64,000 bases of DNA from an uncultured Halomicronema sp. (GTDB lineage Bacteria; Cyanobacteriota; Cyanobacteriia; Phormidesmidales; Phormidesmidaceae), in the NCBI GenBank assembly GCA_937899725.1, contig CALCCA010000040.1, positions 62,001 to 126,000 on the forward strand, given 5' to 3'. Below are positions 50,966 to 57,420 of this stretch, one piece after another. Below the pieces are notes generated by a model, which had not been told where the DNA came from, searched no databases, and worked only from the letters and a program-made list of their open reading frames with translations. Both the position numbers and the translations under genes were made by a program. Numbering within the stretch: the first letter of the stretch is position 1; each line of letters begins with the position of its first letter.

Positions 50966-51002
50966 ATGAAGGGTTCGAGGCGATCGCTCCGAATCCTTTC
51001 AT
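50966..51002 (+). terminator. Hairpin after pstB with HIP1 at its tip
   Basis: ATGAAGGGTTCG pairs imperfectly with CGAATCCTTTCAT around a GCGATCGC tip. No strong T-run follows, so it may stabilise the mRNA end rather than terminate. Confidence 0.45.
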
Positions 51003-51146
51003 CGTTTCGGCAAACCGCGTTGACTCATCTCACGATGCTGAGAGTGCTTTGGCTCAAGCGCTCTCTTCTAACGCAAACCGTAGTTGCCCTCCTCAAGGTC
51101 TCTGAAGTAGTGATTTGACAGGCGTCTCAATGTTCTGACCTCCAAC

Positions 51147-51515
51147 AGACCTCTTGCAAATTAGCGCCAGCAAGTTTTAGCAAGATGAGGAGACATCAGA
51201 ATCTTCCAACAAAAACGTTTCCTGATGATGAAATCCACAATAGCAAACCCTCTTTCCAATCAGCACTTCAAGCGTCAGTTCGGAGTCTCCAAGAAACTCT
51301 TTAGGCGGATGGAGACTCCGAACTGACGCCATACGGAGACCGAACCCAACACCGGGAGCTAAGCCCAAATTATGCCTGGAGAAACGGGTGCTGGTAAATT
51401 TGGCATATCGTCGCCGTTGCTATGGGCTACGCTGCAGTCTCATCGCGGCCATCTACAACCATGAACGGTCACAGGTTGCTTGATGCGGCAGTTTCTGATT
51501 AATCTGCAACAAATC
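51147..51515 (+). mobile_element. Decayed IS5-family element, copy 1
   Basis: A 369-base remnant of an IS5-like element (DDE_Tnp_4 type) with imperfect inverted ends: AGACCTCTTGCAAATTAG at the left and, reverse-complemented, AGATTTGTTGCAGATTAATC at the right. The transposase start remains (MKSTIANPLSNQHFKRQFGV...) and so does the C-terminal YGLRCSLIAAIYN-like tail (cgttgctatgggctac...ggccatctac), but the catalytic middle is gone. It matches the copy at 56664-57272 in the same orientation. Confidence 0.75.
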
Positions 51516-51528
51516 TATTAGTCAGCAG

Positions 51529-51762
51529 CTATTGCAGACCATCGAGCATGGCCACGATCAAGATCGCGCCAACGAGACTGGTACAAGCTTTCCAAAAGAC
51601 AGTCCAGAGAACCTGATAAATTGGTAAGAGTGCTTCTCCTGCGCCAAAGATGCCCGCTAGCGCTAGTAACACAGTGCAGCTAAACATTGTGACAAACAGG
51701 ATTTTGAGCAAATGCCCAATTAGCCGCAGAAGCGTATCGTAAGTATTGATGGGTTGCCGCAT
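51529..51762 (-). CDS. Small membrane protein of unknown function
   Basis: A 77-residue protein with two or three hydrophobic segments (LLKILFVTMFSCTVLLALAGIF and FWKACTSLVGAILIVAML). A near-perfect ribosome site (AAGGAGGTG) lies 7 bases before the ATG, the best in the island, so it is probably well translated. It lies 53 bases downstream of the NfeD-like gene on the same strand and may be co-transcribed with it. No family recognised. Confidence 0.65.
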   Translation of the reverse strand: MRQPINTYDTLLRLIGHLLKILFVTMFSCTVLLALAGIFGAGEALLPIYQVLWTVFWKACTSLVGAILIVAMLDGLQ

Positions 51763-51815
51763 TTATTTCACCTCCTTGTGGCCTCAAGCGCCAAAATTTT
51801 GAACAGGGTTACCGA

Positions 51816-52079
51816 TTATCTGACAGTGACAAACCAGGTGTTCCCCTGGCGCGTTATCGGTTTCACAACAGTGCCAGCAGCAATGTAGAAATTGTTTACT
51901 GATTGGGCGTTCCACTCAGTAGCTTGATACCGCACCCGCCCCGGCTGCCCTGGCCGAATCGCGCGAGTCAGGCGAGCTGTCTCAGTGACTCGAGAGAGCG
52001 ACTGTGAAGTTGCTACAAATTTCGGCTGATTACGGTTCTCAGACTGACGCCGGTTTGTGTTACGAAAACTTAGCCGCAT
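51816..52079 (-). CDS. NfeD-C-like small protein
   Basis: An 87-residue protein. The C-terminal half (PGQPGRVRYQATEWNAQSV...YIAAGTVVKPITRQGNTWFV) matches the OB-fold of the NfeD C-terminal domain, which binds stomatin-like proteins. The N-terminal half is basic and disordered, with no membrane helix, so this is the domain alone. Start ATG 52079; the earlier frame (52094) begins with TTG. It is divergent from the STAND gene, with the phased repeat array in between. Confidence 0.6.
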   Translation of the reverse strand: MRLSFRNTNRRQSENRNQPKFVATSQSLSRVTETARLTRAIRPGQPGRVRYQATEWNAQSVNNFYIAAGTVVKPITRQGNTWFVTVR

Positions 52080-52171
52080 GATGACTATCCTCAATGATTT
52101 TCAGGAAGCCTCTGTTTCTCGGGGCTTCAGTCACCATCATGTCGGCGGCATCAAGGGCTGCCCAGACCGTC

Positions 52172-52299
52172 TGTCACTTTCCCAACTCTCTGCAAAAGGG
52201 GTCATTTCCCGTCACGATCTGTCATCTTCTTGTCAGGTTATGTCACCTGATGTCACTCAGTGTCAGGTTTATGTCAGCAGTACAGCGGCTAAACGTCAC
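52172..52299. repeat. Array of helically phased TGTCA motifs
   Basis: GTCA cores start at 52173, 52201, 52211, 52221, 52232, 52242, 52252, 52262, 52273 and 52295. From 52201 to 52273 the steps are 10, 10, 10, 11, 10, 10, 10 and 11, about one helical turn each. Seven of the ten have the full TGTCA. It is a direct (not inverted) array on one face of the DNA in the 288-base divergent region between the NfeD-like gene and the STAND gene. Likely a binding platform for an oligomeric regulator. Confidence 0.8.
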
Positions 52300-52367
52300 A
52301 TTTTTTTCTGAAAATTCACGGTAAACTCTCCCCATAATTCGGGATAAGTGAGTCTACCAGCCAGTTG

Positions 52368-55040
52368 ATGATACAGGGAGATGATTTCGGGGAAATCCTC
52401 GAAGCAATTGTTCGCTGCTTACAAGACGAAGGCCAGCCCACACTGACGCAGATCGAGCGACATCTGCTGGAATATTTTTGTAGGCAGCCGCATTTGACCT
52501 ATCCGGAGATCGCGGAAGACCTTGGTCGGCGCGAAGCCCGTGAGTTTAGGGCAGGGTATTTGCGTAATGTAGGGGCCAGGCTACGTCAAACATTATCGAC
52601 CCTCACAGGTGTCAAGCTTGAGAAACGCAACATGAGAGAGCGGCTGCACGAATGGCATAGCCGTAACTCTCTGGAGTTGGTGGGTCAAGCCGAAGCCATT
52701 GAATATCTGACGCGCCAGCTTTACAGCAGTCCGCATCAACTCATTTGCGTGAGCGGGCTGCCCATGGTCGGCAAAACTGATCTGGTGCAAATCGTCATCT
52801 CGACACTGATGAGTCAACAGCGCTCAACCGATCACGGGAATTTTATCCTGCACTGGGTGGAAGCAGAAACTGCCCAGACGGTCGCCACCCTTTATCAACA
52901 CGTACACAAAAACCGCCATGATGCTCAGTCAAGCGATCTCGATCAGCTAGAGGTAATGGCGCTGCTAATTGATGAGTTACGAGATTACCCACTCCTCATC
53001 ATTTTGAATGATGCCGATATTCTTTATGAACCCGGGCAACTGGCTGGCGTTTTGCGGGAGAGTAGCGGGTATCATCGCTTACTGCGCCAGATGGTAAATG
53101 ATCCGACCCTCAAAGGTCGCTTGGTCTGGGTCAGCCGGGTTCTTCCACAGCCTCTAGAGGCTAACCGAATCACGCTTTACAAACATCGGGTATTACCGCT
53201 CTCAGTCGAGCAGTTACTGACATTATTAAACCGTCGCCGACTCTTCAAAGAGGCCACTGAGAAACAGCATCAACTCATTGAGTTTTGCGGCGGCAATCCC
53301 GGTCTGCTGCTAGTGGCGGCTCGTAAAGTCCGAGAGTCTTGCGGCGGTCAAGTTGATATGTTCGTTAGAAATCCACTGCGATACCTGAGCCAGGAAGGAG
53401 AATATTGGCGGCAGGCGATCGCAGTTATCTCTGAGATCGAACAAGTTCTCTTAGTCTGGTTGTTGCTGCGTCCCTGGTCGTATGAGGGCATCATGGCACT
53501 GACTCTGCCGGGTATCACGGATGGGCAACGGATACAGGCCCTCGAGTCACTGAGAAAGCGGGATTTTATTCTTGAGCAAGACAACGAGTACCATTTGCAT
53601 CCACCTTATCTTCGCTATGTAGTAGCGGCTTGGCTAGTCGAAACGGTTGGTACTAAAATCCTCGAAAAACAAGGCTTCACTGGCATCCGCTATCCCCTTA
53701 CTCTCCCGCAGGGAGCTGCGTGGCGACGTCAATGGCAGCAGCAGCAGGTGCTTGAACCGTTAGCTGGGGTCATTAAAAACGAGTATTGGAGTCGAGCGGC
53801 GCAGCAAGAGCTATTTGCAGAACTACTGACAGCAATGTCGATTGAAAGACAGGCATCCCCACGCCAGGACTACAGCTATGCCTTAGGTACTCTGCTCACA
53901 ATCGCGATCGCCCTTGGGCTGCAGCTCACACAGCTAGCGCTCAACGGGCAGACCATGCGCCAGGTCGACTTATGGGGAAAATCACTGAATGGCTTGCAGG
54001 CCAGCCATTGTCGGTTTGTTGAATCGGTCTTACCAGTTTGTTTCGAAGGTCTGTTAGCGGCAGATATGTCAGCGGATGGGCAAGCCATCTCAATTGGCGA
54101 TAGCACCGGAAGGGTCGGCTATTGGGTGCGCTCGGGGGAAACTTTTCGACTGCACAAGTATCATCGTTTTCGAACGCTACCCGGCCATTCCGTTGCGATC
54201 ACGGCGCTTTCCATCAATCAGAGAGATGTCGTGGTGATGGCGACTGATACCAGCGTTTATCGTTGGTGGACGGGCGATCAGGCTCACCCCGCTAAGCAAA
54301 CGGCTGTTGATGGTCTGGTGCGCCAGTTGGCCCATAGCGGAGACTATATTGCTGCCGGTCTACAGGATGGCAGTATTTGGGTATACGATCGCACCACCTT
54401 ATCGTCAGGCCATCAACGGAAACATGTTGGGGCCGTTAGTATTCTTTCGTTTGATCCAGATGGGTTTGAGCTGGTGAGTATCGGTCATGGCAACCGCGCT
54501 TTGCGCTGGGATCTGACGGCCAATCCTATGCCCGCTATTCAAGACGTTTTGCCGACTGACGGGCGCATTTTGTGGTCAGTCCATTGGCGAGAGGGGCAGT
54601 TGCTATTAGCGGGCACCCGAGAGGGAATTCCTGCCGTCAAGTGGGGCGAAACTTTGTGGCAAACGCTGCCAGGGGTGAAGGCAATCGGCAGACTAGCGTT
54701 TAGCCGCAACACCGATTGGTTGGCAGGGTGCGATTACCAGGGTGGCTTTCACCTTTGGAATCAGTCGTTTGAAGTCGTCCTCCAGATAGCCTTGCTAGAG
54801 TCCTGTCCTGAGAAGATGGTCATCAGTAATGATGGCAAGAGCTTGCTGACGGTTAATACTCATTACAACGGCAGCCAAGCGGATTCTTGTATCCAATTAT
54901 GGGATGTGCAGGTGGGGCATCTCCTCTGGGAAATTACCACTAGCCAACCATCCCTGGCCTCTCTCTCATTAGAAAGTGCTGTAGGGCTTTCAGCTGCTGA
55001 GCAGCAGCATCTCCAGGAATTCTCGGAGCCGCAGGCATAA
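52368..55040 (+). CDS. HTH, STAND NTPase and WD40-like repeat protein
   Basis: An 890-residue signalling protein. An N-terminal winged-helix-like domain (about 25-100; LTQIERHLLEYFCRQPHLTYPEIAEDLG) resembles the vWA-MoxR-associated (vMAP) HTH. Then comes a STAND/NB-ARC-type NTPase with P-loop GLPMVGKT (about 130-137), Walker B-like LLIILNDADIL and the FCGGNPGLLL segment typical of NB-ARC sensor regions. A hydrophobic helix (LGTLLTIAIALGLQLTQLAL, about 504-523) is followed by six or seven WD40-like blades (IAAGLQDGSIWVYD, SIGHGNRALRWDL, WLAGCDYQGGFHLW, CIQLWDVQVGHLLW). Such proteins act as signal-triggered switches in cell death or phage defence. ATG 52368 is used; TTG 52365 precedes it. The target is unknown. 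Confidence 0.85.
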   Translation: MIQGDDFGEILEAIVRCLQDEGQPTLTQIERHLLEYFCRQPHLTYPEIAEDLGRREAREFRAGYLRNVGARLRQTLSTLTGVKLEKRNMRERLHEWHSRNSLELVGQAEAIEYLTRQLYSSPHQLICVSGLPMVGKTDLVQIVISTLMSQQRSTDHGNFILHWVEAETAQTVATLYQHVHKNRHDAQSSDLDQLEVMALLIDELRDYPLLIILNDADILYEPGQLAGVLRESSGYHRLLRQMVNDPTLKGRLVWVSRVLPQPLEANRITLYKHRVLPLSVEQLLTLLNRRRLFKEATEKQHQLIEFCGGNPGLLLVAARKVRESCGGQVDMFVRNPLRYLSQEGEYWRQAIAVISEIEQVLLVWLLLRPWSYEGIMALTLPGITDGQRIQALESLRKRDFILEQDNEYHLHPPYLRYVVAAWLVETVGTKILEKQGFTGIRYPLTLPQGAAWRRQWQQQQVLEPLAGVIKNEYWSRAAQQELFAELLTAMSIERQASPRQDYSYALGTLLTIAIALGLQLTQLALNGQTMRQVDLWGKSLNGLQASHCRFVESVLPVCFEGLLAADMSADGQAISIGDSTGRVGYWVRSGETFRLHKYHRFRTLPGHSVAITALSINQRDVVVMATDTSVYRWWTGDQAHPAKQTAVDGLVRQLAHSGDYIAAGLQDGSIWVYDRTTLSSGHQRKHVGAVSILSFDPDGFELVSIGHGNRALRWDLTANPMPAIQDVLPTDGRILWSVHWREGQLLLAGTREGIPAVKWGETLWQTLPGVKAIGRLAFSRNTDWLAGCDYQGGFHLWNQSFEVVLQIALLESCPEKMVISNDGKSLLTVNTHYNGSQADSCIQLWDVQVGHLLWEITTSQPSLASLSLESAVGLSAAEQQHLQEFSEPQA

Positions 55041-55398
55041 AAGAACGCGCGAAACTTTAGATTTCTATGGGCAGACGGTTAAAAAACCGCAATTGAGACT
55101 TGCTTTCTAAACTAAATTTGTTGATAATTGCACCTAAGCGCAACAATCCATCTCTACGGAGTCATGTAAGTTTGGCAGCCCAAAACGGTGTTCTCTGAAA
55201 CACTGAGGTTTGATTTTCACTTAGCAAGGTTTTCTGTATCTTTCATATCAGTCTCGAGAAGCCGCAGTCGTTAGGGCTGTCTATGTTCTGCTATTTGCAG
55301 GAATTCTCAATTTCTTCTTCATCAAGGATGTCACGATTTCAATCGAGATGTCACCGCTTTATATAGGGATGCTATTACCGTCTGCGAGATCAGGAATA
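55041..55398. other. Intergenic region with two GATGTCAC copies
   Basis: About 360 bases between the STAND gene and the 419-residue gene. GATGTCAC occurs at about 55327 and 55347, 20 bases apart (two helical turns), echoing the phased array upstream of the STAND gene. No separate gene seen. Confidence 0.5.
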
Positions 55399-56658
55399 AT
55401 GCCCGACGCTACAGACTTCGACATCGTTTACAGCTTTATTCGAGACAAGGTTCGTCCACCGATTGATCAGCCCACCAGCGAGGTAGTTTATAACCTGTTG
55501 GTGCACAAGCAAGCTGATCGCTCTGTCGTGACAGCACTTGATCGCATCGTCAAACATTCCAACTTTGATGGTGAAGCAGGATTACTGTTTATCAATCGGT
55601 GTGTCTATACCGCAATTAACCTGCTGCACTTGGATGCCCAGCGTCACGACGACCTGAAGCGGCTGGTAAAAAAGCTGGCAGCAGCTCCTGAAAATGGCAT
55701 GAACGTTACGACCAAACGGCTGCGCCGGACGCTGCGACGTTATGTAGAAGATGACAAGTATCAATGCGTGTTACGGCAGGCTAGACTCTATCGCAACCCT
55801 GAGGAAGAAGAGGCAACGGTTCTGGGTGATCTATTCCCGGAATACAGCTTTCTCTATCTGAATGCCGGTTTTACTAGTGATATTGAGAAGTGTGACGAGC
55901 CAGTACAGTTAGCTGCTGATAACCGTCAGCGCTCCAGGTTAAAGAATGGTATGCGGCACCGGAAAGAAGAAAGAATCTACAAAGTCCGACAGGCCTTGCA
56001 TTTCTATTGGGATCGTCGTAAACAAGGCAACCTGAGACCTACGGATAACCCCACCCGTCTGACAGAAGAAGAACTCAATAGGGGCATCCGTTTCTATCAC
56101 ACTCGTAAACGAAATAGCTTCAAAGAACATGCGCAGCAGTTTATGAATCGTGATGGACCCGGATATACCGTTAGCGATTGTCGAGGTGCAGTCTTGGAAT
56201 ATATGGAGCGTCCGTTGCAAGTGCTGCCGCCTCAGCATCGAGATCGCTTTAGAGAGGATTTTCATCGGGCTTTAGAAACGATGGAAACTACTGGGGGGTC
56301 GATGCAAGCAACAGTGATTCAGGCTTTCAAGAAGATTCTGGATAGGTTGCTATTTGCAGGATATGAAGCGCGTAGAGCTCATAGTGCCATTGAGAAGCAC
56401 GTTAGTGCGGTTTCACCACTCAACTTTTCCGCTATCTTATTGAGCCTGGTACTGGGGTGTCCAATGATCCTTCACAAGCTAGAAGAACGATTGACGGCTC
56501 TGTATATTCACTATGAAAAAATGGCTATCGAATCGCTCCCGTGGCTGGTGAAATTCTTCGAATATATCCATCTGGCGTTGGTGATGAATTCACGCTATCT
56601 CATGATTCACGACCCACGGGAGACTGAACGCATTCCACCCTCGGTGATTTGGCCTTAG
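55399..56658 (+). CDS. Hypothetical protein downstream of STAND gene
   Basis: A 419-residue soluble, mostly helical protein. I see no known domain. The N-terminal part contains LLFINRCVYTAINLLHLDAQRHDDLKRL and a basic run (TKRLRRTLRRYVEDD); the middle is strongly basic (RQRSRLKNGMRHRKEERIYKVRQALHFYWDRRK). A short hydrophobic stretch (FSAILLSLVLGCPMIL) occurs near residue 355. ATG 55399 is chosen because AGGA lies 6 bases upstream; ATG 55348 is the alternative. It follows the STAND gene on the same strand with a shared repeat word upstream, so I infer that it is its partner, perhaps the effector. Confidence 0.7.
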   Translation: MPDATDFDIVYSFIRDKVRPPIDQPTSEVVYNLLVHKQADRSVVTALDRIVKHSNFDGEAGLLFINRCVYTAINLLHLDAQRHDDLKRLVKKLAAAPENGMNVTTKRLRRTLRRYVEDDKYQCVLRQARLYRNPEEEEATVLGDLFPEYSFLYLNAGFTSDIEKCDEPVQLAADNRQRSRLKNGMRHRKEERIYKVRQALHFYWDRRKQGNLRPTDNPTRLTEEELNRGIRFYHTRKRNSFKEHAQQFMNRDGPGYTVSDCRGAVLEYMERPLQVLPPQHRDRFREDFHRALETMETTGGSMQATVIQAFKKILDRLLFAGYEARRAHSAIEKHVSAVSPLNFSAILLSLVLGCPMILHKLEERLTALYIHYEKMAIESLPWLVKFFEYIHLALVMNSRYLMIHDPRETERIPPSVIWP

Positions 56659-57322: not shown

Positions 57323-57365
57323 TCGATGGTGGGAGATGAGTCCGAGGCTCATCTCCCACCATCGA
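57323..57365. repeat. Perfect 18-base inverted repeat
   Basis: TCGATGGTGGGAGATGAG (57323-57340) and its complement (57348-57365) around a 7-base loop. It lies just downstream of nfu and 50 bases after the right IS5 remnant. Possible terminator or RNA hairpin without a T-run. Confidence 0.7.
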
Positions 57366-57377
57366 CATGAATTGCTC

Positions 57378-57420
57378 CTGAGGTTGAGCAGGTGGTGTTA
57401 CACCACCTGCTCAACCTCAG
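57378..57420. repeat. Perfect 20-base inverted repeat overlapping the nfu stop codon
   Basis: CTGAGGTTGAGCAGGTGGTG (57378-57397) and its complement (57401-57420) around TTA, which is the nfu stop codon read on the other strand. The right arm is the last seven codons of nfu, so the gene end is copied inverted next to itself. Probably folds the mRNA 3' end. Confidence 0.75.

Follow-up and report, generated by a model that had tools for sequence, protein, structure and literature searches.

Helically phased arrays upstream of cyanobacterial HTH-STAND genes, probable operators of STAND regulators

Upstream of a cyanobacterial gene encoding an HTH-STAND-WD40 protein lies a row of short DNA words spaced one helix turn apart, and similar rows precede many genes for the same class of protein across cyanobacteria. 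These arrays are probably operators on which the encoded proteins assemble cooperatively to control their own genes, an interpretation to which a probability of about 0.68 is assigned, while binding itself and the sign of regulation are inferred. In the window, that is the whole stretch of 64,000 nucleotides that was analyzed, GTCA cores are located on the forward strand at 52201, 52211, 52221, 52232, 52242, 52252, 52262, 52273 and 52295 (array 52201–52299), with steps of 10, 10, 11, 10, 10, 10, 11 and 22 bp. A tenth core at 52173 belongs to an outlying TGTCA (52172–52176, forward strand), 28 bp upstream of the first phased core and therefore off the 10–11-bp ladder, and its membership is uncertain. 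Seven of these ten cores extend to TGTCA (52172, 52220, 52231, 52241, 52251, 52261 and 52272), six of them being consecutive and contained within 57 bp (52220–52276).

The phase vector of the cores is maximal at a period of 10.25–10.5 bp (0.93–0.94), falling to 0.56 at 11 and 0.03 at 9. While six TGTCA are chained at 9–12-bp steps in the real sequence, none of 200 first-order Markov simulations of the window gave a chain above two, and no other pentamer of the window makes a 10/11-bp chain longer than two. GTCA occurs on average 0.57 times per 100 bp on the forward strand, and this 96-bp stretch with nine cores is the densest in the window. In the 7-Mb genome, a three-unit TGTCA chain occurs only here, whereas two-unit pairs elsewhere are close to the control rate (24, of which five are in this array, against 16 in the control). 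Importantly, the spacers between the six TGTCA share only 27% identity, so the array is not a fresh tandem duplication or slippage product and the cores look selected.

The downstream gene (52368–55040, forward strand) encodes a protein of 890 residues from an ATG at 52368, or from a TTG at 52365. This protein contains a Walker A motif (GLPMVGKT, residues 130–137) whose pattern G..GKT is invariant in the seven proteins compared, and WD40/β-propeller matches at about residues 568–869. Matches to AAA_22, AAA_16, NACHT and NB-ARC are weak and below cut-off for the window protein, but clear for other family members. Its N-terminal HTH-like domain (about residues 1–98; 52368–52661, forward strand), the proposed binder of the array, has no Pfam family above cut-off, so that the name vMAP-HTH given to it in the sequence-only reading could not be confirmed. 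It nevertheless matches the N-terminal HTH-like domain of a large, unnamed cyanobacterial family with a probability of 99.5 and an E-value of 2.3e-22. The domain has no solved or confidently modelled structure: two AlphaFold models were of low confidence (pLDDT 59 and 57) without meaningful fold matches and were not used, a profile search of the PDB gave only chance-level hits, among them LuxR-type response regulators and a sigma factor, and a profile comparison with a LuxR-like protein of the window was not significant (probability 7%). A search of a defence library likewise gave no convincing match. On the reverse strand, a divergent ORF of 92 residues (51816–52094) has a weak NfeD C-terminal match, below the Pfam cut-off, and homologues of the STAND gene do not all have a divergent neighbor at this position. 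Just downstream of the STAND gene, an ORF of 436 residues (55348–56658) has no Pfam match.

The six closest homologues of the protein are 26–38% identical and come from the same GTDB family. Arrays similar to that of the window are clear upstream of two of them (loci designated L022 and L026), which carry TGTCA(G) words at about one-turn or multiple-turn spacings, and degenerate in the four others, L027 carrying TGTTGG words and L023–L025 degenerate versions. Summed 4-mer self-matches of the seven upstream regions, window included, peak at lags 10, 11, 20 and 30–31, with smaller peaks at 26 and 43. Scans of genome contigs returned none for the window protein and two loci for its own-genome paralogue, and one alignment was too variable to scan with.

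In order to test the wider family, an HTH alignment containing none of the window group was built, and the domain was found in 57 of 96 genomes drawn across the class, with up to 13 HTH matches in one genome. The family members that were checked carry NB-ARC/NACHT modules behind this domain, except one short ORF with no match. Upstream regions of 175 distinct genes, chosen by protein match and not by array although some loci had been seen earlier, were examined. Exact 6-mer repeats occur at lag 10 in 50 sequences, against 9 in a stretch 650–900 bp upstream and 6 inside the genes; at lag 11 in 25, against 6 and 7; and at lag 20 in 26, against 5 and 7. With a run criterion, 61 of 175 upstream regions have repeats at 10/11 bp, against 7–11 of 175 in three controls and a mean of 17.6 (maximum 25) in composition shuffles. 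The corresponding Fisher p value, about 1e-12 against one of the controls, is optimistic since some of the 175 genes are related, but the contrast between lags within the same sequences does not depend on that. About 60% of the family genes show no array by the strict test, and 0 of 10 of the shortest ORFs show one, although this test also misses weaker arrays: L105 (GTCAGAAAAAGTCAG) and the own-genome L106 and L217 carry GTCAG-type repeats by eye, L217 with a period of 9.

Interestingly, the word differs by subfamily: AAAACTCAGG in the own-genome paralogue L159 and in L042, L044, L048 and L203, AAGGTCGGAT in L072 and L119, AAAAGTCATA in L030, L031 and L045, AAGTTATATAA in L068 and L132, TCAGGTAAAA in L186 and L190, AGTCGG in L158 and L164, and TGTCA in the window, L022 and L026. 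Pooled units give GTCAGAAAA, better than shuffled units (210 against 159–182), and the window core GTCA is thus close to the family core. TGTCA is only one version of a word that varies within the family and was rejected as a class-wide code, other TGTCA arrays in relatives having no such HTH within the flanks retrieved. One of the loci examined, L007, on a 4.7-kb contig (G021:C376) without the HTH, carries several TGTCACGCGC-type direct repeats and looks like an unrelated iteron- or operator-like cluster. Similarity of word and HTH correlates only weakly, is not specific for the recognition helix and is lost after removal of related pairs, so no read-out code is claimed.

In three groups (L042/L044/L048/L159/L292, L057/L058 and L030/L031/L045), a –10-like TA[AGC]ACT hexamer begins exactly 16 bp after the start of the last core. 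In the window, L022 and L026, a similar hexamer (TAAACT, TATCCT and TAAACT, respectively) is located 26–27 bp away, one turn further, the TAAACT of the window (52322–52327, forward strand) lying 27 bp after the start of the last core. No –35-like partner exists here, and no ordinary sigma-70 promoter was found in 51700–52700. A class-wide histogram of the spacing shows only a modest excess at 16–17 and 25–27 bp. Between the own-genome paralogue and its counterpart in Oscillatoria sp. CS-180 (59% protein identity), the three units and TAAACT are conserved while the upstream flanks diverge, and a Halomicronema MAG copy agrees.

Collectively, these data support the proposal of the sequence-only reading that the array is an autoregulatory operator of an oligomeric HTH protein, since arrays are not absent upstream of homologues and no transposon end was found. 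In the mechanism inferred here, each GTCA core is a contact site for one HTH subunit, and several subunits sit side by side on one face of the DNA, ending just upstream of a promoter with a –10 but no –35. The binder would be the product of the downstream gene: once the WD40 sensor is engaged, ATP-driven oligomerization of the STAND module would bring many weak HTHs together, so that occupation of the array works as a switch. Activation is the likelier sign because the promoter lacks a –35. Some of these regulators may act beyond their own gene, as hinted by two CTCAG(G/A)AAAATTCAG units, the word of the paralogous STAND gene, located about 190–240 bp upstream of a conserved predicted membrane protein of 244 residues in three species (L228/L293 in genome G005, L233/L294 in G001 and L235/L295 in G004), a possible second target. 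An array of AAGGTCTGATC units (L264, G184:C1:131665) lies in an intergenic region about 1.5 kb beyond the end of an HTH-STAND gene that has its own AAGGTCGGATC array, upstream of an ORF that reads as a pyruvate-formate-lyase activase.

Among the alternatives (ALTERNATIVES), a separate DNA-binding protein shared by cyanobacteria and co-regulating HTH-STAND genes remains possible, although unlikely. The pooled unit is fairly uniform across the family, word–HTH covariation is weak, and words of the CTCAGG and AAGGTC type also occur near a few other genes, and similar words upstream of a few genes without the HTH. However, the common feature of the genes is the HTH itself, and different words coexist in one genome (TGTCA in the window and CTCAGG in L159). 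Furthermore, 10 of 12 STAND-WD40 genes without this HTH show no phased repeats, the two exceptions carrying an N-terminal HTH or HTH-like region of another type. Phased repeats, e.g., GGCTGACTTatGGCTGACTT, are indeed found upstream of L043 and L047, two STAND-WD40 genes with another type of N-terminus (Cro/C1-like in L043). That the repeats work by DNA shape, through A-tracts phased with the helix which bend the promoter, is very unlikely. While many family units contain AAAA once per turn, the repeated part in the window is TGTCA and the spacers are not A-tracts (TCTTCT, GGTTA, CCTGA, CTCAG and GGTTTA), and AAGGTCGGATC arrays also lack them.

The two other possibilities raised by the sequence-only reading, a transposon end and a plasmid-type iteron set, are rejected. 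Although ends of Tn7/Tn402/CAST-like transposons may hold several TGTCA words, there is no inverted copy of the array within 50.9–57.5 kb, no other TGTCA ladder in the window and, by inspection, no transposase among the ORFs of 44–64 kb, and arrays sit in the promoters of homologues in unrelated contexts. Perfect inverted repeats were noted at 51272–51329 and 57323–57420 (20 nt with an 18-nt loop; 18 and 21 nt with loops of 7 and 1 nt), their purpose being unknown. Directly repeated, phased short words also resemble iterons, but the locus lies on a 162-kb contig with ORFs that read, by inspection, as rpsL, rpsG and hisS and with no rep gene seen, and arrays elsewhere are tied to HTH-STAND promoters. 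An RNA element was likewise rejected, with no Rfam match in 51000–53500.

No description of phased operators before cyanobacterial STAND genes, and no described output for these proteins, was found in the papers searched, which did not include most of the subscription literature. A conserved operator in their promoters would make these proteins, of which cyanobacteria carry many per genome, transcription switches. More tentatively, a large cyanobacterial class of STAND proteins without a known output could be self-controlling switches, each assembling as a sensor-triggered, NLR-like oligomer along its own promoter array with one subunit per helix turn, the word diverging between paralogues so that many such switches coexist in one genome.

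Each part of the proposed mechanism has precedents, in PimR and AfsR and in MalT. The cyanobacterial NTPase conflict systems (VMAP-ternary and related), to which the name vMAP-HTH points, are also multidomain NTPase proteins abundant in cyanobacteria and of predicted conflict function, but no vWA or MoxR partner is shown here, and the descriptions consulted mention no phased operator upstream of such genes. In the SARP-LAL regulator PimR and in AfsR of Streptomyces, a DNA-binding domain is fused to a STAND-type ATPase, and the operators consist of two or three short direct repeats (heptamers) with an 11-bp or 10-bp period, bound cooperatively on one DNA face in a promoter region (PMC5930380, PMC3367932). 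The array of the window similarly has direct repeats with a 10/11-bp period near the promoter. However, SARP has an OmpR-like winged HTH, whereas the window protein has no Trans_reg_C or BTAD match and its N-terminal domain belongs to a different, unnamed HTH-like family; in addition, its sensor is WD40, and the array is longer (nine cores) and lies before the regulator's own gene. MalT of E. coli is a STAND activator whose ligand- and ATP-dependent oligomerization is needed for cooperative binding to several promoter sites (PMC10427625). MalT binds DNA with its C-terminal domain and controls the maltose genes, while here the C-terminus is WD40-like without a GerE match, the HTH is N-terminal and the evident target is the own gene.
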